DNA from: Bryoerythrophyllum caledonicum | Taxonomy: Eukaryota > Streptophyta > Bryopsida > Pottiales > Pottiaceae | Assembly (NCBI GenBank): GCA_963971425.1 | Contig: OZ020514.1 | Location: 12,963,218 to 13,027,217 of the forward strand | Length of the DNA stretch: 64,000 nucleotides | Direction: 5' to 3' | In this document: positions 5,952 through 57,835 of the stretch, in pieces | Numbering within the stretch: the stretch's first letter is position 1 | Layout of the letters: each line of letters starts with the position of its first letter | Notes under the pieces: generated by a model | Seen by the model: only the letters and a program-made list of their open reading frames with translations | Database searches by the model: none | Told to the model about the DNA's origin: nothing | Program-made: the position numbers and the translations under genes

Positions 5952-5958
5952 CCGGACT

Positions 5959-6522: not shown

Positions 6523-6646
6523 ACCGGGACTAGACTTAGGAGCTGCTATGGAAGGAAACTGAGTTTCCTCAAATAGGCAGTTTTGAAATCGGGCACTTTG
6601 AAGAGTACCGATTGAGGGAATGACATAACCAATGATATTGGGGGAA

Positions 6647-7279: not shown

Positions 7280-7389
7280 AGAGAAAATAATCCCTTGGGA
7301 TGTTTACTTGTGGATGGACTGTCATCAGCGATACTTGAAATCTTCAGTCCATATAAGCCATTGGCTCCCGCATATGTGGTGGCAAGACA

Positions 7390-8683: not shown

Positions 8684-8759
8684 GATAAGAAGTAAAGTAA
8701 AATAGGATCAAGGAAGAGAGCAACAAGGATGTAAAATATAGAGCTTCGTGCTGATAACA

Positions 8760-9055
8760 TGTTATGATGGAGCTATATACCGTAAGGAAATAGAGCTATA
8801 GACTCTGGGGAAACCAAAATATAAGAGAGAGAGTGCAAATAACATAAATATATTTGTAATATATTGGCTATGGAGAAGTGTCTTCAACTCGGTGGGAGAG
8901 TTGCCTTATATACTTTCCTCCCACCATAGAAGGTAAAGTAAACTATAAGCTTACTTTATTTTGAGTGGATATAGAAACATAAGTTCCTTTTACCTTATGC
9001 AGATATAGAAAGTTAGAAACTACTGATCGTTTCTAAGTTGACTTTTACTTTAACA
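8760..9055 (-). repeat. Copia 5' LTR
   Basis: 296 bp, TGTTA...TAACA. The internal sequence adjacent to it on the minus strand begins TCAGCACGAAGCTC after the LTR end, the position of a primer-binding site; I cannot assign the tRNA. Confidence 0.95.
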
Positions 9056-27560: not shown

Positions 27561-27588
27561 GAAGGAGTGGGAAGAGTTTCTTGCCGCG

Positions 27589-29091: not shown

Positions 29092-30378
29092 GATGTCTTT
29101 GCATGGACATACAAGGATTTGAAGGGGATCCCTCTTTCAATCGCCCAGCATCGGATTGAGTTGGAGAAAGACATACCTCCAGCCCATCAGGCTAGATACA
29201 GGATGAATCCAAACTATGCCAGCATTGTCAAGCGTGATCTGGACAAGTTGCTCCAGGCTGGATTCATCGCACGAGTGGAGGATGCTACATGGCTATTACC
29301 CATAGTCATTGTGCCCAAGAAGAACAGGAAGTTACGCATATGCATAGACTTCCGGAAGCTGAATGCAACAACCAAAAAAGATCCGTATCCATTACCTTTT
29401 ACAAAGGAAGTTCTGGATACTATGGCAGGTCATGAGATGTACTCGTTCCTCGACGGATACTTTGGATATCATCAGATCCAAATTGCCCCAGAGGATCGAT
29501 ACAGGACAACCTTTGTTACAAACAAGAGAGCTTTCGTCTGGATAGTCATGCCATTTGGACTCAAGAACGCTCCGCCCACATACTAGAGGGCAGTGAACAA
29601 AACATTTCGCGAGTATATTGATGACTTCATGAAGCTGTTCCTAGACGACTTCAGCGTCTACAGTGATATATTCACTCACCTAGAGAAGCTTCGGCTGTGC
29701 TTTATCAAGTGTTGGGAGTACGGCATTAGTCTGAACGCGGAGAAATGTGCACTACTGGTGTACTCCGGTATTATATTAGGCCACGTCGTGTCAACAGAAG
29801 GCAAATTTCTAGATCCGAAGAAGATTGAGGTCATTGCCAACATATCAAGACCGACAAAACCTAGAGACGTCTAGTTGTTTAACGGCTTTGCCCAGTTCAA
29901 CAGGTGCTATATCCGGTCCTATGTACACATCATGGAACCCATTACCAAGCTCATGCGCCAAACTGAAGAGTTCATTTGGACTGATCAATGCGAGAAGGCT
30001 TGGCTGGACATCAAGGAGAGGTACCAGAATGCCCCGATTCTCATTGTACCACACTGGGATCTGGAGTTCCACATACATACAGATGCCTCCAACATTGTTG
30101 TGGGTGTCATGCTGGCCCAGAATCCTACTGGAAAATGTGACCAGCCAATCTCCTATGCTTCTCGACTGTTGAATTCAGCTGAGAAGAACTACACTACAAC
30201 TAAACGGGAAGCTCTGGCGATGGTGTATGCTCTGAGTAAGTACCGACACTATTTATTGGGCAACAAAATTGTCTTTTATGTAGACCACATGGCTTTAGTG
30301 TACCTGGTCACAGGTATCCGGGCGAATCGTATGGTGGCTCTTACTTTTCCAGGAGTACGATTTCACTGTGGTTTATAA
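29092..30378 (+). pseudogene. Gypsy pol: reverse transcriptase and RNase H
   Basis: RT motifs in order: ARYRMNPNYA, VIVPKKNRKLRICIDFRKLN, PLPFTKEVLD, MPFGLKNAPPTY and FLDDFSVYSD with both catalytic Asp present. RNase H follows with HTDASNIVVGVMLAQ, KNYTTTKREALAMVYAL and FYVDHMALVYL. Premature TAG codons sit at 29584 and 29872, at positions where the family normally has Gln. A frameshift near 30330 moves the continuation into another frame. Confidence 0.92.
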
Positions 30379-31691
30379 ACCAGGCAAGACCCATAGGATT
30401 GCGGATGCGTTGTCCAGATTATCCAATGGTGAACCTCCCACTGAAGTAGAAGATCAAACTGGAGATGCAGGTCTGTTCTATGTGAACCTAGAATGGTTAC
30501 AGGATGTGACAGACTACCTCCGTACAGGCCATTTGCAACCTCAATTGACTAAGGAAGAACAACGGAAGCTCATCCTCAAATCCCTCCCCTTCACGCTCAT
30601 CTCTGGAGTGCTGCACAAGAGGGGGCAGGATCTGGTTATCCGTCGGGTACTGGACCCCGGTCAAGCCGAACTGGTGATGCGGGAATTACACATGGGGGTT
30701 GGAGGCGGCCATTTTTCACAAGACATTACAGGACGAAAAATTTTGGATGCTCGATACTGGTGGCCAGCCATACACAGAGACGTATCGGAGTATCTGATGG
30801 ACCATTTCGTCCGGGGTTGTCCAGACCCACTTTATCAATGAAGCAATCGAGTATCTGGTGGACCATTTCCTCCTCCAGCACCGAACTTCTACAACATACT
30901 ATCCACAAGGAAATGGTCAAGCGGAATCGACCAACAAGGTGATCGGCCAGCTCCTCACAAAGTTGGTGAATGAGAAGCGCACGGACTGGGACGAACATCT
31001 CCATACCGTATTGTTTTCCTACAGAACAGCATACAAGGTGTCTACTGGACATACACCATTCCAGCTGGTGTATGGCTTACATCCGATAATGCCCACGGAG
31101 TACCTGATCCCAACCCGGACATCGGAAGGATCTCTAGACTATACAGCTAGACGGGTCTTGGCAGCTCGGATTGTAGATCTGGAGCAAGTGGACACTTACC
31201 GGACAGTGGCCCAGGAGTAGGTTGGCAACCGGCAGTGGGACCGAGCGCTTTGGAGTCAGCAACATTACAAGCAGAAAGACTTCCAGATTGGAGATCACGT
31301 TTTATGGTATCCAAAGGGCCACAAGGAGCACACCGGTAAATTCAAGAGCAGGTGGTTTGGGCCTTACCGGATCCAATACAGGTTACCGAACAACACAACT
31401 CTTTTGGTGAAGGTGGACAACTTTGAGCCAAACCCAATTTTGGTCAACATCAACAAGCTCAAGCTCTATCGGTTCTATGAGACCAACCAGGCTCTTCCAG
31501 TCATTTCAGATGACTCAATCCAGGGACGGATTGAGCAGCAAAAGGGGGATAGTGGTCCTAAAGACCAAGTTCAAAGACTCTGACTTCCCCAAGAAGTCGA
31601 GATACTGCGAGAGTTACAACAAACCAGATGGTGCGAATGGCTCAGACAGTCCAAACGGAGTGGCTTAGAAGGGGTACTTCAGATGATCTAA
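30368..31691 (+). pseudogene. Gypsy pol: integrase with core deletion
   Basis: Starts with YKPGKTHRIADALSR and the zinc-finger histidines (LHMGVGGGHFS). At about 30836 the reading jumps from the finger's Cys region straight to the late core (FINEAIEYLVDHF, YYPQGNGQAES), so most of the DDE core is absent, including the first two catalytic Asp. The C-terminal domain (GDHVLWYPKGH, KFKSRWFGPYRI) is present. TAG at 31218 and TGA at 31581 interrupt it; the frame ends at TAA 31689. No chromodomain is seen. Confidence 0.9.
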
Positions 31692-32605
31692 TGTCATCAG
31701 GACACAGGGGTTCAGACAATTGGAAGTTGCCTGAACATAGTTGTTCAAAGAAGGCAAAATTGTCTGAACATGGTGGTCAAAACGATCAGATGAACCAGGA
31801 GGGACTAGGATGTGTGGAGTTTGCGGAAGCAGAGTCTGAAGAGGACCTGGGAAACACAGGAAACCCGGGCGAGTACTAGAAAGTGGTACTAAGGAATCAC
31901 GGCAACTGGAAAAGTCTAGTGTTTACTTCAACACTGGCAAAAACCAATCAGTAGGGTACTAGTCAACTGGAGTTGGAAAACCCCAAATTAGGGAGTTACG
32001 TGGGAGAAGAGTGCAAGTCCAGCCACAACCAAAAGCAGCAAGAGAAGAAAGAATGGAGAGGAGAAGTGGAGGAGAAACGTTGGGGATTAATATTGGGCTG
32101 CAATACGGTGGAAGTGGTGGAGAACGAGGATGGACAGGGAAGCAAAAAAAGGTCTAGACCGAACGGAAACATTACTACTAAGGTACAATCCCTTTGTATG
32201 ATGAATTGTTCACCCCAATTAGTTGAAGATAGTGGAGAAGCGCAAGTTCCATCAATAGTGGAGGAAATATGCTCACAAGACCAAAAGATGTCCAGATTGG
32301 ATGAACACTGGAGGATGATAGAAAGTTCATCCCGTTGGATGAAGAATTTTCGTTCCCACTGAATATATCTAACATGGAGGAAGACCAAGAACAGAAGCTA
32401 ATTTCATTCGGAAGGGATGGAAATTGGTGGACAATACAAGCCACTGGAAATAATGAGTCCGTACAGAAAACACCCAAAACAAATGATGACTGGAGGACAA
32501 AGCATGCGTTTTCTGAAGCGGACAAATTTTTTTGGGTGGAATAGTTTTCATCCATCCAGGATGAAGACCTGATGCAGTACTGCGGATTAAGGATACAGAG
32601 AGTAG
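31692..32605 (+). other. Gypsy internal non-coding gap
   Basis: About 0.9 kb between pol and the extra ORF. Short ORFs on both strands show no domain. Such gaps before a third ORF are common in Athila/Tat-type elements. Confidence 0.5.
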
Positions 32606-35600
32606 AACGGGCGCACAAGGAAAGGGTCCAAGTGTTGGGAACCAAGATGGGTTGGTGAGAAGAGAGAACAAATTGAGGGAACGGCGAGAGCTACTAGGAT
32701 TTCAGCGGCCGAAGAGGCTCTAACGACCCTGGCAACTACAACAGCGGAAACGGTTACACGAAAGCGAGCAACGGAAGGGTCACAGGAGAGCACAACTAAG
32801 CAAATTTTGCAAGAGAGAGCAGCAATAGGAGATACACGGGAGCGAGCAGCTGCAATTTTGCAAAGAGGAGCACCGTCCAGATCTCTCGAATCCGGACAGC
32901 CCATTCCAGTAACCATACCTCTGGAGACCAACCCCGACATACTCGCGCCTGATCCAGGATGTTTAACGCCATATCGAGTCCAATCTATAGAGTCTGTGAC
33001 ATTTCTGATGACTCCTCCGGGGAGAGGAGCCCCTCCCGAACTAATTGTACTTCCAAGAGAAGATCCAGAGCATCAGCTACTTTTGCTACCAACCGAACTC
33101 CCTGAAGAGATACCTCGAACTGTAGGGATGTCCAACCTGGTTGCGTTACAGGAAAACTTGGCATCTAGTAGCACGGGACCTCGGGAAAGTATTCCTGGAC
33201 TATCAAACACCAGAGACCAAGTTCCAGTCCGGCGAAAAGTCACTCAGCAGGATGCCAGAGTCCCCAGACGGATGCACATTCCTCGGCAGGTAAACCGTAG
33301 ATTGAACCTCCAGTTTTTACCATTACGATTTTGGAGGAATTGGCCGGATATTCAGGATGATGCTTGGGCTGGATCGGTGGGACTTGGTGTGTTCTATGAG
33401 TACACATGGTCTCCACCTCGGGAGGAGTTGGTGCGAGATTTTGTGGAACGATTCATCCACGAGAGACCCGAGGTACTAACTCCACAGTCACTAATACAGG
33501 CAGTGGTCAGGGGCATCCCAGTCAACATTACTTATCAGGTGGTTCAGGAGGCCCTGGGTTTGGAAGGCATTCAGACGTTAATTGTTTCCAGGAGCGCCAA
33601 GAATACACACCGACTGTATCAAAGACATTTCAAGCTCACACCCAAGCATTTTTCTACCGATGGTATTCTTATAGCAGGATTTTCAGAGTTATACCAGTCT
33701 CGCATCCAGGCCTTGGTGGAGGTTCTGTGAGTGAAAAAACGGTCTTCACACACCAGTAATGACCTCATGGCTCATCTATACACTGCGGTGGAATCTAAGG
33801 GTGGTAACCACGACTGGACACCACTAGTGGTCTCTCGACTGCGGCGGATGTTAATCCGAGTATATCTCGAGGGGATGTCTGAGATTCCAGGTGCGGCGTT
33901 AATCAACGCTTTACTCAGGGGTTGGTTTCCACATGACGAGGAGTACAGTGACGCAGATGTCCAGGTTGGCCACGAAAATCCATCGCATGGCGCACCCTTA
34001 GATTTGCATGAGAGTGATGGTTCTCGAGGTCGGACTGTGGGAAACCCAATTCCTCTCACACCATCTCCAGAGGGACCACCTCCTCCAACAACCGCACCTC
34101 CAGGCCGATGGTCCATAAGGAACCAATCTAGGAAGAGGAGTCCCCCACAGAGCCCCATCCAAACCCGAAAGAAGACCAGACATGCTGAGCTTACAGGAAC
34201 TCCCCAGACACTTGCAGCCAGTACAGCAGAGGACCTCGATTCTTCAGAGCTTCGACAGATAGAGCAAGGTGCGGTCACCTCCAGTCAAAGACAGCTTTCA
34301 CCAGCAGCTACCACGATGGGAGTAGACTTTTCCAGCCCATTATCCAGAGTTCCAAAGAGGTTGCGGAAACTAGTCCAGATCCATCTGGAGACGGACAAGG
34401 AGTCTCCACCACAATACAGACCAAGCACTTCTGCGGTTCCACAGGAGCAACCACGTATCGTACCGAAGAAGGCAGTTCTTGAGGAGTTACCCTTCGTTCA
34501 GGACTCCCAACCAACAGGCCAATCCTCCGAGGTTCCTCCCACAACTAGGGCGTTAGAACAGACGATCCCCCAGGTCCAGCAGCACACACGAGAAGTTGCA
34601 GCTGGATTTCGGAAGGCACTGCGGTATCTGGACCTCAGTACCAAGACGCCATCCAGGACACAGGAACTCCAAGGCCAGTTGGAATGAACGCAGCCAACTC
34701 GAATTCAACTACTCGAGGATCAGGCTCAACTCCAGGGAACAATTTAGGCACTCCAGACTCAACTACAGATCACTTCTCGAGCCTTAGTAGACAAAGGAAA
34801 GGAGTTGGACACTGCGAGATTGGAGATGTCCAGATTTGATCCCGCGATCGTCGCAGCAGCTCATGTCAAGAGGGTGGAGCTGGAGACTCAGATGAGTGCT
34901 CGACTTCGAGCATTTGACCAGTTGGTGGTAGATAACCATCAGCTTCTTCGTTGACTGGAGTTAGTAGAAGAGCGTCAAACGATCTCCAATCGCGGGATAA
35001 CCAAACCTCTCCTTGCTATTTCACGACGTCAACTACTCAGTGAGGTGGGTGCTTACCAGACAGATCTGGATCGTTTGAATAAGTATCTCCTCAAGTTTGT
35101 AGATGCTTACCCCGAGTTTGTTTACTGCTCCGATGAGGAGTTGGACGAACCTCCAGAGCAGGAGGCCAATCCAACTCTAGAGGGTGGTACATCTGGAAGT
35201 GTTCAAGACACTTCTGCACTTGCCTCCGACACTGAGACTGGATGGTAGGCCACTCCCCAGTCCAAGGCACGTGCTGCCAGGACGGTGACCCTTCCTTGGG
35301 ACCGGACGATTCCTCCCCCAACTCCAGATTTTCAGCCTTAGACTACTCCATTCTGGGGAGCAGCTTATCCTTTCCAGGGTGGCTCCAGTTCAGGACCCAT
35401 TCAGGGTCAGGCGGGGATTTCTTCTGGATCTCCAGACGTTCAAGGCGGTAGAGGACCACCAGGGTTCAACATGGCTACTATGGAGCATTACGCTCGAGCA
35501 GGAGGCTACGGAGGCCCGTTTCCTTATCCACCTTCGGGGCACTATCCGTTTAATGGAGTACCTGGACATTATGGTATGGGTTCTAGTACAGGAGGACATG

Positions 35601-35995
35601 CACCACAATATCAGCAATATTATCCGATGGCTCCTCCAGTCACTTTTCCAGGGCCAGTCTAGACGCCTATTCCGCCTCCAAGGGTTGAATTGACGAAGAC
35701 ACTCGACCCGAAGACAGTTTCAGGACCCGAATCGATCAAGCTGAAGGTAAAGGCATCCAGTTCTGGACATGATTTGCAGGCAGCAATCAGTTCAGAGCCT
35801 AGAATCGGTTTGACAAGCGCTGAAGATCTTCCCCGCAAGGTAGTTCTTCCTTCAAGTGGCTAGAGATGTCCAATAGAGTTTCAGAGGTGACTGGGTACTC
35901 TAGATATAAGTGACCAGTATTTTGTGTCTAGAGTTATGTTTCTGTCCAACACCACGTGAACATCTGAGGGCAGATGTTGTTCAAAAGGGGGATAA
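32606..35995 (+). pseudogene. Long extra ORF between pol and the 3' LTR
   Basis: A single frame stays open for about 1,130 codons apart from ten internal stops: TGA at 33728, 34685, 34952, 35888 and 35957, TAG at 34745, 35246, 35339, 35660 and 35861. All ten are one C-to-T change from CGA or CAG. The N-terminal third has a folded-looking block (LPLRFWRNWP, REELVRDFVERF, VVRGIPVNITYQVVQEALGLE) resembling the putative plant transposon domain found in Tat/Athila-type elements. The middle is Pro/Ser-rich, then a Gln-rich coiled coil, then a Gly/Tyr/Pro-rich tail. The terminal TAA touches the first base of the 3' LTR, so the polypurine tract AAAAGGGGGAT is also coding. It occupies the env-like position, but no signal peptide or membrane segment is visible. 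Confidence 0.75.
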
Positions 35996-36885
35996 TGTTA
36001 ACCGGAATTTTAGGCTTATTATAAGGTCCCAGTAGTAATTTTCGAAGTTATTAAGTAGTTATGGTTAAAAAGTAAATTAGAGGATGAAACTGTCCTGAAT
36101 GACAGTGGATGAAACTGTCCTGAACGACAGTGGATGAACTGTCTATACTTTGGATGAAACTATCCGGACCTGGATGTCATCCATCCGGACATCTTTCATC
36201 CATTAGGGCAGGTTAGGGCTTGGAGGGGGTAGAGAGCCGCCCTCTTGGGTTTGGAGGCTCATTCCATTCTCTTTTCTTCTCTGGATATGTGTATGTGGAG
36301 CTCTGGGGTTGTTAGAGCTAGAGTGTAGAAGTATGGTTAGAGAGTTAGGATCTGAAGCTAATGTGTGGATCTGTAGTTGTAGTGAGTATGGGAGACGTTT
36401 GTGAAGGCTTGAGGAAGAAAAGCATGAATTGGATACTACTTCTTGTGTGTTTGTGTTAGTGTTGTCAATGTGTGAGTAGATCTTGTTGTTAGAAGAGTAT
36501 TTGGATGCAACTTGATTGTGGGTATTGTAGATCTGGCCTAAGTACACTAGATCTGGTATAGATCTAGCTCGATCTACTAAACCTTGACCAAATCTAATGT
36601 GTTAGAGTTAGAAACAAGTCTGGATCTGTTGTGGGTATGATCTGATTTGCTGTAATTGAGTGCGGAAACTTCAAATCTGTGTGTTAAACGTAAGAAAAAC
36701 CACAGAAACAAAGTCCCAACAAACCCTGAATTCAGATCTAGATTCAGATCTAGGTCGATTCTAAGGTTTTAGACTCAGTAAAAGTCCTATTCCGGACTGT
36801 CGTCTACTGTCCTGAAACGTCAGTTTGATGGAGCGTAGAAAAGATTGTCTTTCACCTAATCTTTGGGTGAAATCCCCCTTTAACA
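35996..36885 (+). repeat. Gypsy 3' LTR
   Basis: 890 bp, TGTTA...TAACA, followed by the target duplication TGGAT. Preceded by a purine-rich tract (35983-35992), the plus-strand primer. Confidence 0.95.
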
Positions 36886-37089
36886 TGGATGCCACACCTA
36901 TTCTAGAGATGGAGACATAATCTTTTACAATTTATAAACTCTCTATATACTTTTATATTGAGCCTTGGATGTATTGCATGTATTGTCTATCTTGTATCGC
37001 ATGAATTTTTTGGGACAATTTGTATCCGTGGTACACTATGTACCACTCCTACAGTGTGTACCTTTGATACATATTGTATAGGAGAGTGG

Positions 37090-40920: not shown

Positions 40921-43542
40921 CTGAAGGTCCAGTTTTGTTTCAGAGGTGTGTGTTGGAGAGTTGTAGGAGATTGTGAAGGCCAATGGAAGATAGATATGGA
41001 GAGTTAGCTCAAGGGCGATTTGGAAGCTAGAACTATGGTAAGCATTGACACGATCCGTCTTTCACTTTCAATTTTTTTTTACTTGGCTTGAAGTGCGGTG
41101 TTTTCTAGTTTTGTGTGTTAGAAACTTCAATTGTTTTAGAGCTAGAATGTCGCTTGAGAGAGCAATACTCAGAGTCCTTTCTGAACTAGTCTGAGCTGAA
41201 ATCAATCCATGTTTAGTCTGCCATTTTTGGGGTTTAGATTTAGGAGGTTTAGGGTCGATGTGGTGTCAATCTCTTTGGTGGGACAAAACTCCACCAATAT
41301 TTTCTCTTTGTGAAGCTAAAATGTGTTTGTTTTGTGCATTCCCTTTTTATACAAATTGTACAGTTTGTACAGTTTGAACAGTTCCTACAGATGTAATAAA
41401 TTGGCGCAGACTTTGGAATGTTTACAAATTGGTGTTGTTTACTATCTTGTCCTCTTGCTATTTGATGTTGATCTTGCTGTGTGGCTGCATACAGTTTAGG
41501 GGTCTCGTCATTGTCGTCATCGCGGAATGACGCAGTTTCGAGGCTGTAGTGCTCGGCAACTAATGGACGGGGTGCCAATTCTTCACGGGGTATTGGGTGA
41601 ACATGCGCAGGAAGGAGTAGAGCCTCGTCACCAATGGGAAGGGGTGGAAAAAATTCCACGACACTAATCACTCCTCCAACTGAAATGATGGAGGCTTTTC
41701 TGATGGAGAATGAGGATGCGCCCAACGAAGGAGAAGAGCATGAAGGTAAAGAGGAGAAAGAAGATTCTTCAAAGGAAGAAGGTTTTGAAGAGGGAGAAAA
41801 TTCTGAAGAGGGAGAAGATTCTGAGGACGAAGATAAGTCTGAGGGTGCTGAGGAGGACGACACGTCCGAGGCTGCTGAGGAGGAAGGAGAACCGATGTTG
41901 GAGGAGGACGTTGATGAAGAGTTCCGAAAGCTATCGGAGCCACCTCCATTGCTGACGAGGGACTTCTTCACCAAGAAGTATGGCTTTGTAGATGACGGAG
42001 CGAATCCGATGAAGGTGACGAAGTAGAATGAAGTTGTATTTGATGACAACCATTTTCGGTAAACCAGTTGGCAAAGATGGGCGCAATGGATACTACTGGA
42101 AAACTGTGAAGCACCGGAAGATCCGCAGAAGATTGGAAGAACTCCTCCCGGCCTTGTATCAGAGGGATGTGGTGCCACACCTACTCCCTCACAAGATGGC
42201 AGGAGCAATTGTTCCTGAAGACAAATGAGCAATGGTTAACATGGCAGCGTATGGGGAAGCCACAAACAAAACCAAGCGTACCTCAAGCACCAAAAATCTT
42301 CTACAACTCAACATGCTGAAGCGGGCCTCCACTTGAGCGGCTCAAACTGATTGGAGGAAGATCCATATGGATCCAAAGGAGCTCCATTTGGAGGTGTGCG
42401 AAGGCGGTTGGAGCTCTATAGCTAGACAAATTCTCGATGGGGAGGAGTGCCAGACCAGGTTAATTCTAAAACTTGCTATCTATTTGATTGGCCATCCTCT
42501 TTGTCTTTATTGTATTGTTCATGTCTTAATTGTACAAAATTGTGGCATATGTACAGTTTTGTACAAGAGTGTACTCATAAGTATGTGGATGACCACAAAT
42601 ATGATTACATTGGGAGAGTTTTTCAGTTGGAGAAATTGGAGTTAGAGGCTGCGGTTCATATTCAGCAGCAAGTTGCGAAGGCGAAGGAAGAACGAAGGAC
42701 TGAATGTGAGTATGAAACTAGAGTTTTGACTAAGTTTAAGAGATTGCAGGATGTACCAGTTCCAGATGAAGAGGTGGCAGCAAGGAATAATGCTTTGAAG
42801 GATTTGATGAAGATCTCAAGTGTTGAGGTGAGAAGGTTAACGGCAGCTGGTGTCGAGTTACAGAGGGACCTAGAACATCACAATGACCGAGTTGCGAGGA
42901 AGCGGTTGGAATTGGGAGCTCTTGAAGCTGAGAATACCCAACGTGGGCGTGCTCTCGGTGGCCTTCACATGAGGCCCATGCCCATGGTGTATACTTTCGT
43001 AAGGGGACCTTCTACCTCAGTGGGTTCTCTTGATATTTCAAATTGCGTGCTTTGTGCCTTTCCTTTCTCAAACCTAGAGATTGTGGTTTCTAGTTGTCGA
43101 CATCTTTACCATCCATGGTGTGCCCTAGTGAATTTTTCCAACTCAGCCAAGGGTTGTGGTCATGGTTGCTCCACGGTTCAACCCAAGGAGTGGACTATAA
43201 GTTTTGATTGGAGGGGCGTGCCAGGTTGGAGGCAAACTCGCAGTGGGGGCAAGGATTTTGTGACATTGATGGGTGAAATGGCTCCATTGGTCAGTACAAT
43301 AGTAGCAGCTCGAAGTGAAGATGCTCAAGCTAGAGAGGCATATTCAACCGCATCAGGTGATTTCATTGTCCACGGTTTTTTGTACAATTTGGACAATTTT
43401 TGTACCGTAGGAAGGTATCTTATTGTTCTAGTCCTACATGTTTGTATATTTTTGTGTTGCTTAGAGTTTTGTGTTACAGTCCTTTATTTTGTTTAAAAAT
43501 ATATGTACTTCTATCCATATAGATTTGTATGTTTGTTATTTG

Positions 43543-43878
43543 CACTAGTACAAAACAGGGAAAAAAAAACCGCACTCGAAAGTTCGGAGTTGCGGTTCGT
43601 TTGACCACGCTGTCGCACTATTCCTAAATCGGGCTGTCCCGGGATTTTTGGCTATAACTCCCTCATTTTTGGGAGTTTTTGGACGTGTAATGTACCGTTG
43701 GAAGCGCATTTTTAAGACGCTTTCAACGGTATATTACACGTCCAAAAACTCCCAAAAATGAGGGAGTTATGGCCAAAAACCCCGGGACAGCCCGATTTAG
43801 GAATAGTGCGACAGCGTGGTCAAACGAACCGCAACTCCGAATCGAGTGCGGTTTTTTTTTCCCTGTTTTGTACTAGTG
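43543..43878. mobile_element. CACTA-type MITE, foldback
   Basis: 336 bp. The ends are CACTAGTACAAAACAGGG and its exact reverse complement, flanked by the 3-bp duplication TTG (43540-43542, 43879-43881), as for CACTA/En-Spm elements. The whole body is a near-perfect palindrome with about 165-bp arms, differing at only a few positions. No ORF. A homologous site without the insertion is present at about 57400-57480. Confidence 0.93.
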
Positions 43879-43952
43879 TTGGTTTGGACTTATGGTACAG
43901 AGAGCTCTAACCGTTTGTATATCTATGTGCTAGTTTGTATTTGTATGCTTTC

Positions 43953-46670
43953 GAGTCAAGAGATGGCCTACTGAGAGCTCCGTAATTTTTGGTAAGGGCT
44001 GCTGCAAAGAGTTAGTCTCATAACTGTGGTCTAGGGCAGCAAGAGTTGCTGGGCTTGCTCTTACCCCACCTTAACCTTAGATCTGGACTTGTTGCTTGCT
44101 TGGGGAGAGGCGTGTTATGTTGGAAAGGGGTTTTTGTCCTTAGATCTACTTGTGGACACACACAGAAGAGCACTGAGAGCCGATCTGAAGAGTTGGGGGC
44201 TCGATTGATAGGCAGAGAGTTCACTCGGGTGCTGATCTGTAGTGACGAGGCCTAAGTGCTAGAGGGAAGCTGATCTGAAGAGCTGGGAGCTTGCCTGCTG
44301 GGAAGAGAGATCACTCGGGTGTTGATCTGCAGTGAGGAGGCCTGAGAGCTAGAAAGGTGATTACCGGAGAGCTGATCTACAGAGCTGGAGCTCGAGTGTT
44401 GGAGAGGAGGTTACCTGCTGAACATCTCCGTGCAAACCTGTAGTGCTGGTTCTAGTGCACTAGATCGATAGATCTAGTATCCACCCAGAGTGTGTCACAC
44501 AAGCTAGATCTAAATGACATGGGATAGCTCACGCCCATAGCACACACACAATTCTTTCAGCAGCCCAGATCCAGAAGCCACACATCACACAATCTGGAAA
44601 AAGACGATTCAAGCACACAGAAGACTCAAGATCTAGACGAGAGTGACATAGCGACGTCACCATCATACACAACATCAACTACCACAGCAATAAGTATCTC
44701 TCACCTCTATATTAGATTAGTTCATTTTTTGCCATATGTTGTGCTCGCATACCAATATACTAGATACCTAGTAAAAAGTATACATAAATTCCAAGTAGGG
44801 ACACCCAGGCACAGTAAGTTCAGTACAAATTCTACATGTAATCCACAGCTCAGACTAAAGCACAAAACACACCTGCCGAAGGGCAGTAGCAACCTCCTGA
44901 AATCACAGAAGAGACATTGTGTAAGATCACTGCTATACCTAAAACTTAGTACAATAGGTAAAACCCTAATTAGTAACTCAAACACAAATAAGAATAGACA
45001 TGTAAACCCAACCAAAACTAGAACAACAGCACGCACTAGATTCAGTACCAAAAACATAATACACAACTGCACCTCACAAAAACACTACCCAGAAAAGAGC
45101 CACTATGCTAACACCTACAGATCACAAGACAACGGAGAGACAAGAACGCAAGTGATTCAGGAGAGTCAGCAGCTGAAGCGACGACCACCAACACACAAGA
45201 CAACTCAACAAGAAAGCCACAGACACATCACGACAAAGACAACATCCAGCACCAGGAGGACTGCACCGTACCTCACAAGAGAAGGAATCTTCCCAGAACT
45301 GTCTCTACCCTGTTGAGAGACCCCTGCAGACTGGAATCGCCTGCCACATCACACGACTCAAGAACAGCAAGAGGACATAGAAACGAGCACAAGAGTAGCA
45401 GTACATCAAGATGCGCCCACAAACTCAGCAACACACAAGGTCGCAGAACTAGCTCTACCTGGGAAGAGAATAGAGACGAAGAAATTCAAGTTGCCAGGAG
45501 CGCCAAAGAGCCAAACAACACTCCGCACCAGCACGTACACCTCCCCTGGGAAACGAGCACCGACGCAAAACGCCAATTTTTGAGGTGTGACGGGGAGCCA
45601 GAAACCCGGAGAAGAAATCGCCCCTACGCCGAACCTGCCTCGACACCACCAGGCGACCACCGCAGGCCGAAGTACTCTACTACATTCCATCTCCACCTAT
45701 CAACAAACAAGACCCAGTCCCAACAAGACTCAAGAGCAACAAGCAACCACAAACATGAGCACAAGAGAAGCGACACAACCTGGAGGAACACTCAAGACCC
45801 ACAAAGACGCCCCCCCAGTATAGAGGACAGAAAAGAAGACCTGCAAGCGCCGAAGTACGCCCTGAAGATAAGTCGACGTCGCCCTCCTCAAGACGTAAGT
45901 AGTGAAGCAGGACCCCCAGCAACGAGGTGTGCCAAGAAGCCACGAAACATGCAGAACCAGATCAGGAACCTCCCCTCCGGGGAGAGCGCCGTTGTGCTGC
46001 AGACCAAACCCTGAGAAGTGGAGCGGAGCCAAGCTCCAGACAAGCTCAAAAGAGACGCCTTCACGTAGAGCCGGACAGAGACGCCGAGCACAGGTTACCA
46101 ATAAGGAACGCGGAGTCACAGAGAAGACGCCTTCACAAGGAACCGGGCAGAGATGCCGAGCACCGAATTCCATCAGGGGACGTAGAGCCACAGCAAAGAC
46201 ATCCTCACGAGGAGCCGAGCAGAGACACCACGCATAGAATCCCAACGGGAGACGCAGAGCCTAGCACCGAACGAACACAAAGTAGACACCCGCCCGGAAA
46301 GACATGCAGCGACACTGAACCGCGAACACCTAGAGGAGACGAAGAGCCAAGCACCAAGAGAACACAGGAAAGACGCCATTACAAGAAGAAGAACAGAGAC
46401 CCTGAACTCTGGACACAGGAAGGAGACGAGGAGCCAAGCACAGCTCGGAACAGACACCCCACTGGAGAGACGAGAAGCGCCATAGGATCCCGAACACTGG
46501 GGTGCACCGAGGCACCAGCAAATCTGCAACGGGCAAAAGCGAAAGCAACGGAGACAACTCAGAGACTACGAGCCGTACACTCTAACCCTGTCTACGCATA
46601 CTGTGAAAATTCATCGTGCATGTGTTGCTCTAGCCCGTACTACAGAACTAACCTCCCTGTATTAGTGGAC
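43953..46670 (+). other. LINE 5' region with tandem monomers
   Basis: About 90-bp monomers at roughly 44178-44268 and 44269-44356, with a partial third copy, share CTGATCTGAAGAGCTGGGAGC, CACTCGGGTG and GAGGCCT(A/G)AG blocks. At 46010-46490 a second repeat encodes variants of RDxEHRIPxGDxEP in an open frame leading into ORF1. Whether this upstream frame (from about 45927) is translated is unknown. Confidence 0.65.
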
Positions 46671-48306
46671 ATGGCAGAAGGTACAAAAAGGACCCTAAAC
46701 ATGGACATGGAGATGGAGTCCCCCGTACAGAGCCCCACCCAAGCTCAGAGCTCAAAGGCAACTAGGAAAAGAGAAGAAATACCCAGCACCAGCAAGAAAA
46801 GCAAGGCTTCCACAACGGAAAAAGGTAAGTCCATACAAACACCCGAACTAACCAAGTTTAAGTTCTGGATGGGGTTCCAGGCAATGGAGGCATTGGCAGT
46901 GGAGAATGGAGATGAGGAGCTCTTCAGGGAAGAAACGACACTTGACATAATGGCTAGAGGCGTGAAGAAAGGAGAAGCGGAAGAGGTAAGTAATGCAAGA
47001 ATAACATTCCCTAGAATCCCACAAAATCTCTACCCCATGTCTAAGAAAGGAACAGATGGGCAACATTACAACCTAACACAAATCCCTTTTGATATCAAGA
47101 CCCATGTAAAATTTTGGATTATCATTTAGCTGCCATGTAGCCATCCACTTTGAGCTCCCTAAAAACCCAATTATGCATGATGAGATTAAAAAGATGACCC
47201 TTGCTAGACTCAAAAAGATGAATATTGCTCTTGGAAAGAACATGGTGGACCCTCTTTTAATCCAATGTTTAAGTATCAAACATGGTGGGACTAAAGGAGT
47301 ATGGGCTGGAAATATTAAAATCCATCTACTTAAATCCAAACTAGACGGCTTGATGCTCCCAAAAGGCATTAGACCATTTATCCTTAATATTGATGATGAA
47401 TTTGTTGTTGGCAAAGTATGCAAATCCTACCTCGGGATTGCAAAAGGTACTAACCTTTCTGTGAAGGTCAAAAGTGATAGCCTAATGGATTTTTCAGCCC
47501 AAACTCTCTTCAAGGAAATCCTTGAGAGTAGTTTTCACCGAGGACATGACTATGAAGTCTACCGTATCCAAAAAGGACATGGAGATGCCCACGCATTTAT
47601 TATCTCCACAACGCCTCTCCAAACAAAGAAGATACTTGCTCACCGTATCACCGTGAGAGACGAAGTGATACAAGCAAGACAAGTGGGGGACACCAAAGGA
47701 CCCAATGGTGTGGTGGAATCCAAAGCAAGGAAAGAAGCTCTAACCCTTACCCTCTCACCACTCCCTATCCATCTTGATGTCATGTATACAACACACGAAA
47801 TTTATAAGATAATGGAAGGAGCCAATGTGAGGAATATCTACTTCCACGAAGAAGAGGCTAACCATCACAATGGCAATGCAAATGTACTTTGTGCTAACCC
47901 CATTGTCTATCGGACCTTTGTGCACAAAACCTTCGTTATGAATGGGAACTATGTGGATTTTGTCCCACATCGAAGAAGCTTGGAAGGAGACAACCGCCCC
48001 ACGGAGGAACAAGTTAAAAGCTTTGGCTTTGATGACATTAACAAGGCTATTGTCAACACCATCACCACCTTCAAAATGCAAGACAAGAACGAGACTCTCA
48101 CCAAGAAGGACATGGTGGAAATCTTGGAGGAGAACAACAAGAAGATTAGAAGAGAAACTCGAGAGTACACCAACAAAATGCACAACGAGCTCAAGGGAGA
48201 GATGGAGAACCTCCAAGATGCCCTAATAGGAGTACTCAAAAGCATGTCGGCTATCACGGGGAAGAAAAACTTGACAATTGAAGACAAAGAACCATCAAAC
48301 ATGTAG
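46671..48306 (+). pseudogene. LINE ORF1
   Basis: Probable start ATGGCAGAAGG at 46671. It has an acidic/Ser-rich N-terminus with KRKxE-type basic patches, a globular region with the pattern VAIHFELPKNPIMHDEIKK, and a C-terminal coiled coil (LTKKDMVEILEENNKKIRRE). ORF1 proteins of LINEs bind RNA; no diagnostic RRM or zinc knuckle is visible, so the role rests on position. The frame changes by one base between 47110 and 47127. A strong donor-like GAG/GTAAGT at 46986 might point to an intron, but the acceptors available do not restore frame. Ends in TAG at 48304. Confidence 0.65.
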
Positions 48307-49880
48307 TGGTACAAGACTACAAGGCAAACACGTACTTAGATGCAGTGTATCATACATATAAAATACGGTATAGTACTATATACTGGATACCAAGGAGCGT
48401 ACACAGATCTGAAAATACACTAGAATACCCGTATAAATACAGAAAACCAAAAAATATATTAGACCGTACACCGGAAAAAATGGAAATACCAAAAACAAGT
48501 TTTTTTTATATATATACGATACTCAAAATTAATACAGTACAAAAATAAAAAACTATACTAAAGACAATACGGAAAAAGAAAGAGGGAATTACATACATAC
48601 TAAATACACAGTATAAATATCGTACACAAAAACATAAAAACACAGTATACACAAAAATACGTGCTATATATGAAAATATATACATAAAACACAAATACAT
48701 AAACAAACAAAAGACAAACAAAAATACATGTACACAACAACACAAAAACAAAGTTTACATATGCTCACAAAAAACAAAAAATATATATACACACCCATAC
48801 ATAGACACAAAGACACATACACAAAATAGACAACTACATACAAAAAACATACTCACAAAAAAGACGACTACATATAAAAAACACACACACGCAAAATTAC
48901 ATTAAAAAGAACACACAAAAATCTATCTTCTCATAAACACCCAAAATCCAAAAAAAAACCAACACACCCAAACACACACAAAACCCAACTCACATACACA
49001 AACAAACAAAATCTACATTAAAAAATACACAAATACACACAACATCAACTACACACACCAATACACTAAACATAAAACCATATACAAAAACACATACACA
49101 AACTTAAACCCATTAACACACCAAAAAACCAAAAAAGAACCAAGCAAAAAGGACCATACATATCCAAAAATACACATAAAAGTATACATACGAATAAGCA
49201 AAAACAAAATCAACACCATATCCACAAAAAAAAATACAATCCCACACACACACCAAAAAACAAAAACGCCCAATACAAACTATAAATCAACTAAACATAC
49301 ATACACCACAAAAACAACTACAAACAAAAAAACCCCAACAAATAACAACACACACACACCTCCAAACAAACATAAACCCAAAAAAATCACACAAAAAACA
49401 AACAACCTAAAACACGAAACTAAAGACATAAAATCACTATTACTCCTAAAAAAAAAGAGACATAAAAATTGACCTTCATATACATACAAATATGAGTATA
49501 AACACCAGTATAAACAATAAAATTTATACTAACACAAACAACAAAACAAATACTAAAATAAATCCCAACATACATAATAACACAACTACATATAAACAAG
49601 AACTAAACACCCCCTCAAATACCAACATAAACACATATACAAATATTCTTACATACCCCACACACTCATGGCCAAACACGAACACAAAAATATACAAACA
49701 AACATACACACACCAATACACCACTAAGAACACAAAAACACCTATGCAAATTAATACATGGACACAAAAGAAAATTATTATTATTAGTGTAACAAATACA
49801 ACCACACCCATCATAAAAATGAACAACAAAAAAAATCATCATATCCAATATACCAAAAACCCGCCTCCCCCCAACAATAA
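48307..49880 (+). other. LINE inter-ORF spacer, almost G-free
   Basis: About 1.6 kb made almost wholly of A, C and T on the plus strand, with many ACACAAA- and ATACA-type runs. The ORF at 49492-49899 is low complexity (Asn/Thr/Lys) and probably a composition artefact. Confidence 0.8.
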
Positions 49881-52800
49881 AACTCTAATAATACAATAAA
49901 ACTCCAAAAATCCATACGAAAAACGAAAATATTAAAACCTATCACTAAACATACATATCACAAACTCCTTCTACTCCTAGGAGGAGACATAGAAACAAAC
50001 CCAGGACCTATGCCTAACATACTAAAAAGACACCCTACATCACATAAGAAAAATGCCAAAATATACTTCATACCTAATACCATAAAATTACAACCAGAAT
50101 ATGAACACATCGCAAAATCCTTTGCACCTTTTTTAAAAAACACCCATACATTACACTATACACTCAACACTACACACCCAAACATTGCCCAATACATACA
50201 ACAAAGAAATATGCACCCACCACCCCACATTCTATATGCACTAATAATCACTACTCATCCAAACACAGATGAATGTAACCATCTCCTAAATCCACAAAAT
50301 TTGAACACAATTACATGGATCAATACACTACTACAAACTTTACTAAACTTACAAAACCCACCAGAACGACACATTCACACTCCACACCCTTACACTAAAT
50401 TCCTGGTAGACAACCAAAATATTATAAACCATGAGAATTCAATACATAAAAGACTAAACGACTTCTTACATAGTCAAGACATACTAGCCTCAAATGATTC
50501 AATAAAACTAAAATTCCGTTACCTACCTAACAACCTCATAAATGAATCACTTAAATAACTAGACCCTATACCAGAACACACCCACCCACCCCCACCTCTT
50601 CCCTACATCCTTCCTCAAAATCAAAACATAAGATCAAACCAAGAAAAATCATACATAATCACACGGAATGCCTCCTCACTAAACAGTGCCCTTCCTAGCT
50701 TACAAAATTTAGTCACAAACACAGACACACCACCGGCCCTCATAGTTATACAAGAAACAAAACTAACCGCCACAAAATCTACAAAATACATACAAAATAT
50801 ATTTCAAAACTATAAACTCATCTTTAACAATACACATGCACTTTCAAGATGCATGCAACAACGGAGATCATACACACGAGGCCGGGGTGGCCTCCTTACA
50901 TTAATACACAAAAAATATACATTCCCAGGCAACATCAACAAAATCCCTACCCCAATGCCCATACCACCATACATTCAAATAATTAAAATCACTAATCACC
51001 CACTACAACCATGGTTAATCTTTCACATGTATATGCCATCCCATCCCGAAGATACTAGATTTCTCTTAGACATACAAAACACCATTACATCCCAAATTAA
51101 TAATAATCCCAATCATACATACCTATTATGTGGAGACTTCAATAGAGACATAGCGCTAATTGGCCGTCAAAATGGAAACCATCACACCCCCCCTCAAAAC
51201 ATTGATTATCAATGGCGTCGCTTCACAGAAAACTTAAACTTCACTTACATCAATATCGATACACAATTCTCTAGACAAGGTGGCTATAATTATAGGGATT
51301 GGAATCTAATAGATGGATTTTATATAAATACAAACAACAATACACAATGCACCTCCACAACAAACAAAGATATTATTCTCAACTCGGACCACTCACCCGT
51401 ACAATTGCACATTCCAAATAACATACTAATTAGTAGAACTCCTATAATCCTAAACAAAGACAATATACGCATACTCAACCCCATCCCAAAAACCAACATA
51501 GAAAAATTCAACACAAAATTCTTCGAAGAAAACTCCGTACAAATAGACTCCCTCACAAACACTCTTGAAGATAATAATCAACTAACACAAACACAGTGGC
51601 AAGAAGCATGCCATACTCTAGACAAACTCATCAATAAAATCTCTGATACACTAGAACAAACTTGTAGAGCACACCCAATACCTCAAATGACAAATAGAAC
51701 TTCTCAACAAGGCGGGTACCTACCCCGCAAACTCTCTAAAACTTGGAAACAACACTTAACCACATACCATACCATACGCAAAACCAATAGAATTGTAAAA
51801 AACAATCCTCAATGGCGTAACCACCCCATATACAATGAACTACTAAATATACAACTCATCCAAATCCCTACCGCGCCGCCTCCGGACCTTCCCCACGATA
51901 TATGGATAAAAGACATCGCGCTAATTGCAAAAAATGCCAACATACAAGCCCGAAAAGTAATCACAAAATTCAACAAAGAAAACATTAAAAAAGCCATCTC
52001 AAAATATAGACAACTATACGAAATCAGCCCCAAAAAAATTAACAAAAAAGTCTTTAAAAACCTTGAATCCCCGCCGATGGACTGAATCATAGATCAATAC
52101 AATAATATTTTAACTAGCCCCGAAGACATTGCAAATGAAATATTCAACCAACAAACAAAAATCAATAGACCAACAGTACCAACATGTAATTACCAACCAC
52201 AAGATACAATAGAATGTACAAGTGCAATACGCCAATACCCATGGCATGACCTGGACGGATATACCCTTGACAAATGGGGCGAACCAGAAATTCCACTTCA
52301 TAAATACCTCAACAGAGCCACATATGACACATGCCTTCAAAATCTTGGTAATAACAAAGCCCCAGGCCCAGACCGCATACCAAACTCAATACTCAAAAAC
52401 ATGCCTCCAAGATTTCATAAACTACTATTCATATTCTTCTCTCACTGCTATAAACAAAAACAAATACCAAACTCATGGAAATCGAGTACAACAATTTTAT
52501 TATACAAAAAAGGCGGCCCGTCCATGCTACCCAACCATAGGCCAATTGCACTAGCTAACACAGTATATAAACTCTTTACCAGTACATTCACCTCCATACT
52601 ATCCTCATACGGCAAAAAATTCAAAATCCTACATGATAGTCAAGAAGGATTTAGAGCAGAGAGAAGTACCGCACGACAAATACAAACTATAATAGCCGCA
52701 CTAGAAGACGCAAAATTTACAAACCAAGATATATACATAGTATACGTGGACTTCAAAAATGCCTTTGGCTCAATTGACCACGCCCGACTTCTAGCAACAA

Positions 52801-55800
52801 TGACAGACCTTGGCTACCCAAAAGAGGCAACTATACTTGTTGGAAACATCTACTCTCAATCATCTACTTGCTACACCAGGGAACACTTTGGTAAAACAAA
52901 ACCTATACCCATCCAAAGAGGAACTATACAAGGGGACACCCTCAGCCCATGCCTATTCATTATATTTTTAGAACCACTACTCAGATGGCTAGAAAGAGGC
53001 AATAACGGATATACTTTTGGCACATCACAAGTCATAATAAACTCCGCCGCATACTCGGATGACCTAGCCACCATAACTAACAAAATCAAATCAAACCAAA
53101 TACAACTCAATAAAATTGATAGATATTGTAAATGGGCTGGCATGGATGTGGGAGTCCCAAAATGTGCCGCTACCGGATGCCCAAACAAATCTAAATTGAA
53201 CCCTACCACTTTCAAAGCCCTAATGCAAACCTCTAACATCAACTACCGCAAGCAACCAATCCCTATACCATACCAAAATGAACCATACACATACCTAGGT
53301 ATAAATCTTGTTCCCTCACTAAAATGGAAAATCCAAATTCACACTACAACCACAAAGCTCATCAAACAATGCAAAGAACTAACAACATGTCCAGCCACCA
53401 GGAAACAAAAAATTAAAATGGTTGATACCATACTACGCCCAAGTGTGGCATACAGTTGTTATGGTGTACCATACTCTATGCCAGCCATCAAAAAACTTGA
53501 TCAAAAAATAATCGCCATACAAAAAACCATATGTGGAGTACCAAAATGTATGTCAAATGCAATAACACAACTCCCACATAACCTATTTGGACTTGAAGCT
53601 TTCTCCCTAAAAAATGCATATCTCCGATGTATTGGCGAACAACTACAAAATGCCTTAAACGATAAAGGTAGACTTGGAAAAATTTATAATGGGTTAACTC
53701 ATTACATACTTGCCCAATATGGTGGCGCTGAAAACATACCCAGAATTTAAAAAGCCGACTGTATAAGGTCACCAATAACACAAACATTCTTCTTATTAAA
53801 ACATATAGCTAAAGTCCACCTTAAAAGCACACTCCCAAACTTCCTCAGTAACCCTACAACACTTGAAATACTATGGCGGCAAGAAACACTGAACCACAAC
53901 ACACTCAATGCTCAACTCTCCCAAAAGCTTCTACAAAAACTCCTCTCAAAAAATATTTTTGAACTAACCCAAATTACTCTACCTAACGGCACACACATCA
54001 TGAACTATGAAGACTTCAAAATCTACCACTTCACTCCAACTAAACTAATAAAAAGTGCCCTAAATGTTGCTAAGCAAATATTTTGCCACCCAACATGCCC
54101 CACCACATGTCATACTAATTGTAACATACACCCATACTTGCAAATACTTAAGGATCCATTCATTACCCCCAACAATAGCATCATCCCAAGAAATATTCTC
54201 ACACCAATCAATCCCCCTAATCCCCCACATACATACCATCCCCGCCCCCCAACATACATCCCCAAAAACCCTACCACATATCCCATTAATAATATCATAC
54301 GCCATAAACATATCCAACACATAGACACAAATAACATACAAAACACCTACACAAAATATTTATGCCAATGGTAATACAATGATAACACATACAATAAATG
54401 GCTCCACCAAAGAGACCTATTTCCAAGACACGACACCAATACCTCCACACTCAACACCCAAAAATTAAAACAATACTACCAAAAAACCCAAAACAAAACA
54501 TACTTAGAAATCATCCAAGCCACCACCTACAAGAACAACTTTCAGACTCAAGATCTGTAACACCACCCATAATTATTCCACTCTTAAACATTTACACAAC
54601 AGAATGCAACCCCGTAAAAGATATCCATACACCCTCAAACACAATTATAATAGATAACGATCAAGCACATCTATATGAAGAAAATGGCCGACACTTACAC
54701 TCCATCCCCACTACTCGACTCAAATGGTTATGGAATCAATACAATACAAAATTACAAACCCCCACAAATATTGAACCAACGACCCAATCCTTTGAAACCG
54801 AACTAATCTGGTTATACCAAAGGTATAAATACCGAATACCAAAAACTGACCCCCTAAAAAATGCACAATACACAATACCCACTTCCATTTTAGACTCATT
54901 AATCTCATCCTTTAACATCGAACAATCATATTTTTCTTCCCCGGTCACATGTTCTACTAAACTAAAAAAATTCTACTCACCTTATGAAAGAGACAAAATA
55001 TTCGGATCCCTAGGAAAGGCCTTTGACTATAAATGGATCGGCAATGGTATAGCTCACCCCCACAACGAGAAAGATATGGAACAAACAATACATTGGGCTC
55101 GACTTGCCGCCAAACATGATCCAAATAACACAAATACAATCATCATCACACCGAACAACAATTGGTACCAAAACAACAACTCACACTCAAACCCATTTTA
55201 AGATTCCCATATCATTACATTATTTGAAGTAGATACAATACCATACGAAGAACCTACTATTCCACCCGAGCTAAGAAAACCCCGAATCGAGCCATCCACA
55301 TTACAAATACTATGCGTCCATCATCAAAATCAAACCCTTGGCTCCCTCGAACAAATTGCGGAACTCAACTCCATAACAGACAATCTAGACATACAGCGAC
55401 CATACACAAAATTGGCCCCACCAACACCCACACAAACCCCTGTAAACAAAAGTAAAAACTGGTCAAAACTAAATTATGTCAACAACACAATAAACTACTC
55501 CGTTATACCTCCCCCTCTTCCAGACTACCCCACTCATACCACACCAAAATTTAATCCCGCACACAGCTATTACAGTGATGGCTCCTTTAAACCACCCGAA
55601 CAAATTAGCCTGGGCTCCTGGCGCAGAGAAAAAGCTGGCTATGGCATATATAACTCTACGAAGGAAATTAAACTAGCCAAAAGACTCCATGGACTACAAA
55701 ATATCCTCAGAGCAGAACTCATGGCCATTCACAAAACACTACAAATCATCACAACAAAATACAATAATGAACCCGCACATATATTCACCGATTGTATAAA

Positions 55801-57026
55801 TGCATTTTACCTACTAAACACTCAAATAACACACCCTACCCTTCATAATAGCCACCCCGATCAAATTATACTAACATCAATGGTCCAAATGTTACAAAAT
55901 CGTACACAAATCACAACCCTCCATAAAGTGAGAGCCCATGCCAACATTGATGGGCAACGAACAAGCAGACAAATTAGCAAAAGAAGGCCGAGAAAAATCA
56001 CACAAAAATGCCAAAGACCCACACGAGCATGCCCATGCTACCCCATACTACTTTCAAAAAGAAGAATGGCCTTCCAAAGAAGATACCCCTGACAAAGGCC
56101 CAATTAGATTTTTGGGCAAATATCTCAAAAAACAAGACCTATACCTTGATACAATCTCAGAAAATATTCCTAACATAGAAAAATGGACTAACAATAACGA
56201 CATAGACAATGAACTCTCTACAAACTTTTGGGAAAACCCCAGCATCTCAGACTCGCAAATAACATGCCTCATCAAATTCCGTACTGGTCAGTATATGGGA
56301 AACGCTTGCAAACAACTCTTCTTTGGAATAGAAAGATTCCCATCCATAACATGCCCCATATGCCCCTCAACGGACCCCGACACATGGCTTCATGTTCTAC
56401 TCAAATGCCAAAACCATCACATACATTCTCTTATTGTTAAAAGACATAATAAAGCGGTATGGGAAATCCGAAAACTAATCACCTCCTACAATAAATCGAG
56501 ATGTTTTATTCTAATGAACGCAGGCACTTTCAACAACAAACCACAAGAAAATACGGTCCCCGCTTGGCTACTCCCATGCTCATGTATGACCCAAAGATGT
56601 CATTGCAACGCTCGGCTGAAACCAGACATTCTTTGTGTTAAAGGTTTACTATATAACGACCCACCACCCGATAACATCAACCAAGATTACACCATTCAAT
56701 TCATTGAATTCACATATTGCAACGATAGATTTTCCCCGGAAACAATCCAAAATAAATTTGATAAATACCAACCCCTTATTAACGACATCATGGCTCTCGG
56801 GTGGAATGTGGACCCCCTTATTGTACTAACATCTGGCGCTCGTGCTACCTCCTTTATCCCCTCTATGAATAATCTTGAAAATGTCTTCAAAATTCCCATT
56901 GAAACAATTAAAACCACCTTTAAAAACATTAACACCATTGCTATTCAACATGCCATGTCCATTCTTCTGCATAAACGCAAAATCGAAAACAACCAAGCCC
57001 TCCCCGATACACAAGACCCCCCTTAA
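49881..57026 (+). pseudogene. LINE ORF2: 2A, APE, RT, methyltransferase-like, RNase H, RLE
   Basis: About 2,380 codons. LLLLLGGDIETNPGP lies at 49965-50009. APE endonuclease about 50650-51420: TRN, QETKL, YMPSHPED, CGDFNRD, LIDGFY and SDHSPV are all present. RT about 52480-53190: RPIAL, YVDFKNAFGSID, RGTIQGDTLSPCLF and AYSDDLA, catalytic Asp intact. Methyltransferase-like segment about 54930-55160. RNase H about 55560-56020: YYSDGSF, LRAELMAI, IFTDCINAF and GNEQADKLA. Finger CPICPSTDPDTWLHVLLKC at about 56350, RHNKAV, then KPDILCVKG and IQFIEFTYCND...KFDKY about 56620-56770, a PD-(D/E)XK pattern. Lesions: TAA at 50556, 53748, 54372 and 55199, TGA at 52083, and frameshifts near 54555 and 55945. 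No in-frame ATG precedes the 2A motif. True stop TAA at 57024. Confidence 0.82.
49965..50009 (+). other. 2A-like ribosome-skipping motif
   Basis: Encodes LLLLLGGDIETNPGP in frame with ORF2; the D-I/V-E-x-N-P-G/P core is complete, with Met as the second residue after the skip point. Similar motifs occur at ORF2 N-termini of trypanosome and metazoan LINEs. Confidence 0.85.
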
Positions 57027-57338
57027 ACTCTTCCCCCACCTTGATTTATCTTGACTTGTTGGTCTTAAGGTTTGTGATTGCTTGCTTGATCGGTAGTTGG
57101 TTAGTTGCTTTGTTTGAGATAGGTTGGTCGGTTGGTTGGTCTGTGGTTCTTTGGCTACTTGTCACATAGTGTCTACCCTCGAGAGAGGGGAGTAGTTCCA
57201 GCTTACATTTCCTTGTCCAGTGGGCATGGTCTTAGTAAGTGGAACGAATAGACACTTTATTCACGCCGGCCTCCTTCGAAGACCGGCGTTCTTCTTCTGA
57301 GACCGGCGTTCTTCTTCTTCTTCTTCTTCTTCTTCTTC
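57027..57338 (+). other. LINE 3' UTR with GC-rich hairpin and (TTC)n tail
   Basis: T-rich UTR followed by a short inverted pair CCGGCC...GACCGG (about 57265-57287), then GTTCTTCTTCTGAGACCGGC and (TTC)n. Related tails occur at about 62615-62725 (minus) and 63150-63262 (plus). Confidence 0.75.
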
Positions 57339-57349
57339 TGTATGCTTTC

Positions 57350-57835
57350 AATTCCAAGTACCTCTTGGACTTACAATTTTAGGTGTACACTGGTTTCTAC
57401 CGTTTGTACTTGTATTCAAATGGATTTGTATGTTTTGTTGTTTGATTTGTACTTATGGTACTGAGAGCTCTAACCGTTTCTATATTTGTGTGCTAGTTTG
57501 TACTTCTTAGCTTTCATGACCGAGTATCTCTAGGACTTACAATTGTAGTTGTTCATTGGTTTAATTTGTTAGTACTTAAATTTAGATGGATTTCTATGTT
57601 TCTTATATGGTTTGGACTTATGGTACTGAGACCTCGAATCGTTTGTATTAGTTAGATTAGTTGTACTTTATTTGTTATTTATTTGTATTGGTTTGTACTG
57701 ATTTGTACTATCTTGCAATCCGTATTACCAATTTTTGTATCAACTAGGTTTGGATTTGAATGTTATTTGGTTTTCAATTATAATACCGAGTGTTGTAACC
57801 TTGGTGTTCTTTATTATCCTTGTGCCAATCTGTAG
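57350..57835 (+). repeat. Tandem TTGTAC-rich intron units
   Basis: Two units of about 150-165 bp (57351-57515, 57516-57660) share GGACTTACAATT, ATGGATTT, CTTATGGTACTGAGA and TCGTTTGTAT/CCGTTTCTAT. A third unit at about 43400-43950 was split by the MITE and bounded by the LINE. All lie in the last intron of copy 2. Confidence 0.75.

Follow-up and report, generated by a model that had tools for sequence, protein, structure and literature searches.

A 64,000-nucleotide stretch of contig OZ020514.1 (here called the window) contains a 13.4-kb element that is very probably a decayed full-length copy of a Dualen/RandI-type long interspersed nuclear element (LINE), inserted by target-primed reverse transcription, the mechanism established for LINEs. 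The preliminary description of this DNA had proposed two different endonuclease types in this one LINE, and this was borne out: the apurinic/apyrimidinic endonuclease (APE) type was recognized by motifs and Pfam and the restriction-like endonuclease (RLE) by homology and predicted fold. The profile searches that it suggested matched APE (under the cut-off), reverse transcriptase (RT), and RNase H, and reached the RLE through homologues and fold; the RNase H, a CAPAM-like domain, and a 2A-like motif had been missed. The parts of the element, including its two open reading frames (ORFs), are as follows.

43942 to 43952, no strand: 5' copy of the 11-bp target-site duplication, TGTATGCTTTC
43953 to 57338, plus strand: whole element, delimited by the target-site duplication and an empty-site paralogue
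44178 to 44353, plus strand: two 90-bp repeats in the 5' part of the element
45927 to 48306, plus strand: ORF1 in two frames (change near 47110 to 47129), without a family match
48307 to 49964, plus strand: G-poor low-complexity stretch from ORF1 to the 2A motif
49965 to 50009, plus strand: 2A-like motif, LLLLLGGDIETNPGP
50010 to 50555, plus strand: N-terminal region of ORF2, without a Pfam match
50649 to 51479, plus strand: APE-type endonuclease domain (motifs; Pfam PF03372, 4e-5, just under the cut-off)
52086 to 53747, plus strand: RT (RVT_1, 1.6e-26; trees)
54638 to 55400, plus strand: CAPAM/PCIF1-like methyltransferase fold (PF12237, 2.7e-13; model of relative P0245)
55550 to 56020, plus strand: RNase H with a frame change near 55953 (PF00075, 2.8e-6; catalytic positions identified)
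56352 to 56408, plus strand: zinc finger CPIC...H...C
56439 to 57023, plus strand: R2-type RLE (model, fold matches, homologues)
57309 to 57338, plus strand: (TTC)n 3' tail of the element
57339 to 57349, no strand: 3' copy of the target-site duplication, TGTATGCTTTC

All of the APE motifs named earlier were located (ITRN at 50658, IQETKL at 50748, CGDFN at 51129, and NSDH at 51381), as were those of the C terminus: the finger at 56352 to 56408, KRHNKAV at 56439, KPDI at 56619, FIEFTYCND at 56700, and NKFDKY at 56751. The assignment of an RLE to the C terminus also held, since its predicted structure matches R2-type PD-(D/E)XK endonucleases. In an RLE alignment of 25 rows, C84, H115, P174, and D175 were invariant, and C87, H97, C102, R114, and E202 were conserved in at least 90%. 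In most rows of a separate residue comparison, a lysine, which is a putative catalytic residue, comes after the glutamate in the helix. Sequence searches of the PDB gave no matches with the C-terminal piece and a weak match with the APE domain (exonuclease III at 0.017). The element shares with R2 a zinc finger and, as modeled, a PD-(D/E)XK-type nuclease fold; it also has an APE, an RNase H, and a CAPAM-like domain, none of which R2 is known to have, and its RT lies outside the R2 group.

The domains of the element run in the order 2A, N-terminal region, APE, RT, CAPAM-like fold, RNase H, zinc finger, and RLE, with RNase H between RT and RLE, as expected of Dualen/RandI. Domain profiles trained on the same protein pool were used to survey 72 Dualen-type proteins picked by rank (P0001 to P0070, P0083, and P0084), and 44 of them carried APE, RT, the CAPAM-like domain, RNase H, and RLE in this order within one protein (35 without 2A and 9 with it). 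Among 25 proteins outside this set, the APE profile matched 16 and the RLE profile matched 10. The recurrence of APE, RT, RNase H, and RLE in the same linear order across many relatives means that their association reflects neither chance nor a nested insertion.

Sequence searches with the RT placed R2 nearest (4e-31) and L1 next, and the highest identity among the best 120 of 328 matches was that of P0134 (85%, across 61% of the piece). A careful tree of 47 rows, hand-picked from the 107 rows of a quicker RT tree, put the element in a 31-row clade (bootstrap, 100; SH-aLRT, 96) with proteins of Haematococcus, Parachlorella, Nannochloris, and others; the same placement was given by the 107-row tree, which took in 11 of the 120 close relatives and none of the short RT pieces. 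The RT lies outside the R2-type and APE-only clades, alongside other dual-endonuclease elements, in a tree without rows labelled Dualen, CRE, RTE, or Jockey. When the element's 8-row subclade was constrained to join R2, the topology was rejected (p 2.7e-5), as was that joining it to L1 and four other rows (p 0.004). The preliminary description had held that an RT within an L1- or Jockey-type clade, together with a C terminus lacking any structural match to PD-(D/E)XK nucleases, would refute its proposal, and we observed no grouping with the available L1/APE-type rows. In a sister lineage (P0071 and P0075 to P0077), the APE, RT, RNase H, and RLE were all present, whereas a CAPAM-like domain could not be assigned with confidence. 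Its absence from P0071 is uncertain, because that row showed a faint CAPAM-like signal (E 0.003) when 7 sequences were searched. Scans of viral and prokaryote-genome contigs yielded no confirmed relative. The fragment P0232, which is 52% identical to the C-terminal half of the element, is labelled as a protein of an archaeal metagenome-assembled genome (Candidatus Nitrosocosmicus), where it is probably eukaryotic contamination.

The 11-bp target-site duplication reported earlier was found as an exact repeat at 43942 to 43952 and 57339 to 57349, and the longest repeat in a random control (3,000 placements, equal slack) was 8 bp. The flanking DNA is itself repetitive, and the flanks, once joined, align across the junction with an uncut copy of the flanking repeat at approximately 57431 to 57614. 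The single duplication and this uninterrupted copy together show that one insertion event covers the 13.4 kb. The earlier claim of a full-length element stands for its extent, but ORF2 is not intact: it has five stops (50556, 52083, 53748, 54372, and 55199) and two frame changes (near 54520 to 54535 and near 55953). The copy is full-length in extent yet dead. A near-perfect palindrome at 43543 to 43878 (arms of 124 and 37 nt, 97 to 100% complementary), perhaps a foldback element, ends 74 bp upstream.

Two readings that dispense with a Dualen/RandI-type LINE fared poorly. An ordinary plant LINE of L1 or RTE type, with a C terminus that resembles an RLE by chance, would have the APE that we see, and L1 and RTE are the LINEs given for land plants in the available portion of a plant review (PMC9033089); the RLE homology, the structural model, and the RT placement make it very improbable, and a chance resemblance of the C terminus is rejected on the R2-type fold match together with the RT topology tests. 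Just as hard to credit is a composite in which an APE-type LINE and an independent element of RLE type were inserted side by side. The splitting of the copy into several frames would be compatible with such an arrangement, but the five domains occur in the same order within one protein in 44 of 72 cases and one duplication encloses the whole element, and on these two results we reject the composite. Several points weigh against our own assignment. The APE match falls slightly short of the Pfam cut-off, L1 is a long branch in the 47-row tree, so that its rejection needs some caution, and kinship with Dualen comes from the architecture and from named green algae (Haematococcus, Parachlorella, and Nannochloris), as the tree has no row labelled Dualen. 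Likewise, the structural model of the CAPAM-like domain comes from the relative P0245 and not from this copy, and PDB sequence searches reached CAPAM weakly with a 13-row profile (6irx, E 0.24) and not at all with the CAPAM piece (one unrelated match at 0.54) or a 5-row profile (no matches).

PF12237 denotes a CAPAM-like methyltransferase and not a WW domain, according to the accessible part of one report (PMC7641849). It matched residues 116 to 254 of the translated piece from 54398; homologue searches used this same piece, the first ~45 residues of which are out of frame, which added noise only and left the PF12237 match unaffected. The methyltransferase fold is retained in the predicted structure of P0245. 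All 58 long-tailed Dualen-type proteins carried the domain, and so did Haematococcus elements in a held-out control, for which the training stretches were still cut with a profile of the same pool. The presumed catalytic loop, positioned by the family alignment and a near-constant offset in the model rather than by residue-exact superposition, is occupied in the element by AHPH (55052 to 55063) in place of NPPF. None of 80 rows (the element and 79 of 93 proteins, stretches of >200 amino acids) had an exact NPPF-like motif, the near-motif relatives having HPPF (P0015 and P0031), CPPF (P0023), or NPEY (several). The domain therefore shares its methyltransferase fold and PF12237 with CAPAM/PCIF1 and differs from it in this loop and in being embedded in a retrotransposon protein.

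Most likely, the CAPAM-like domain has lost methyl transfer, and its contribution to the particle would be to bind RNA or the cap; taken by itself, binding of RNA, perhaps at the cap, is a proposal that we put below even odds. We consider it unlikely that the domain, with its altered catalytic loop, continues to methylate adenosine at N6 and marks the RNA or cDNA of the element itself. Its retained fold, its presence throughout the long-tailed proteins, and the HPPF, CPPF, and NPEY loops close to the motif would all suit an active enzyme, whereas the lack of any exact motif would not. Moreover, human PCIF1 is usually inactivated through changes at N553 and F556 (PMC10544176, in part), and in Drosophila an F-to-H change accompanies absent m6Am (PMC9479742, in part).

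The preliminary description had ORF2 opening with the APE; instead, it is preceded by the 2A-like motif and then by some 180 residues without a Pfam match. LLLLLGGDIETNPGP, which contains the (V/I)ExNPGP motif of 2A/StopGo, directly precedes ORF2 and is the sole such motif across the six frames of the window. The pattern [D/G]xExNPGP was found in 10 of 249 proteins, all 10 of which are among the 72 Dualen-type proteins. In an intact relative, ribosome skipping at this site would release the ORF2 protein. Animal LINEs with 2A motifs exist, and the element likewise has a leucine-rich run and then GDIExNPGP near the start of ORF2, but here the predicted 2A occurs alongside both an APE and an RLE. 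As far as its available text goes, a survey from 2026 did not find plant viruses that naturally use such 2A motifs (PMC12846837).

ORF1 contains internal 24-codon repeats (46053 to 46268), and its scanned pieces (46602 to 47126 and 47110 to 48303) gave no Pfam match above the cut-off. The strand composition of ORF2 is 10.8% G and 27.3% C; the coding strand is strongly short of G from 49000 to 57000, with a GC skew as low as -0.75 at 49 to 50 kb. No cysteine protease was matched in the ORF2 pieces scanned, of which the N-terminal part is degraded. Such a domain is reportedly part of the 2005 description of Dualen, but it is hardly defining, as it occurs in some relatives only. Precomputed Pfam matches in Dualen-type relatives (P0004, P0030, and Haematococcus rows) show differing protease domains, namely Ulp1 (PF02902), OTU (PF02338), and Josephin (PF02099), which suggests that this part is swapped.

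For an insertion by target-primed reverse transcription, RT would begin on the RNA at its (TTC)n terminus and RNase H would clear the template. The APE and RLE might divide the two target nicks between them, a role for which we would put the chances at somewhat below even. The CAPAM-like domain, catalytically lost, would act as an RNA- or cap-binding module of the particle. Drawing these steps together, it is possible, though doubtful, that Dualen-type LINEs all carry a captured dead CAPAM that recognizes their own capped 5' end and selects full-length transcripts, that the second endonuclease aids 5' completion, and that the lineage also exists, overlooked, in land plants.

Elsewhere in the window, a long terminal repeat (LTR) element at 22215 to 36886 has 892-bp direct repeats (98.2% identical), RVT_1 at 29092 to 29583, and Integrase_H2C2 at 30299 to 30838, and we take it to be young and gypsy-like. 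An older LTR element on the minus strand at 4159 to 9055, presumably copia-like, has 290-bp direct repeats (93.6% identical) and a zinc-knuckle ORF at 7393 to 8568. An open mitochondrial-carrier gene at 688 to 1653 presumably resembles land-plant NAD+ carriers. The ORFs at 20272 to 21162 and 42426 to 43493, which have a similar RING-like motif (SSCxHLYHPWC) and weak RING matches, may be a local family of genes or belong to a repeat. No matches came from Rfam, tRNA, or NCBIfam scans. A host other than a land plant, an alga or another eukaryote, would make this an ordinary range for Dualen; the green-algal identity of the named Dualen-type relatives speaks for such a host, but we judge it improbable, as the carrier presumably resembles those of land plants. 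The copia- and gypsy-like elements suit a plant nuclear genome but others as well.

Like Dualen/RandI, the element combines APE and RLE in one protein with RT and RNase H, its RT falls between those of RLE-type and APE-type LINEs, and its 3' end is a simple repeat; RandI-paired short interspersed nuclear elements of Chlamydomonas end in (ATT)n or (CTTT)n, according to the part of the source available (PMC3747384). It differs in its host, which is a probable land plant rather than a green alga, in its separate ORF1, in the lack of a protease domain in the scanned ORF2 pieces, and in its CAPAM-like domain, which is undescribed for Dualen in the open-licence literature searched; the founding Dualen paper lies outside that scope, so absence from print is unproven. 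Haematococcus elements carry the domain, so Dualen most likely has it too and it escaped notice. As far as the accessible parts of these sources go, Dualen/RandI is placed under green algae in a survey (PMC4438587), occurs in relatives of Chlamydomonas (PMC8226300), is annotated as LINE/Dualen in cryptophytes (PMC12747079), and serves as evidence for APE replacing RLE in LINE evolution (PMC4640811). A land-plant member would broaden the known range of the group, the available portion of the plant review giving only L1 and RTE (PMC9033089). The sister group P0071 and P0075 to P0077, with both endonucleases and no confident CAPAM-like domain, offers a way to test in which order the domains were gained. 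If present across the clade, the CAPAM-like domain would represent a novel part of LINEs and link retrotransposition to mRNA-cap biology.
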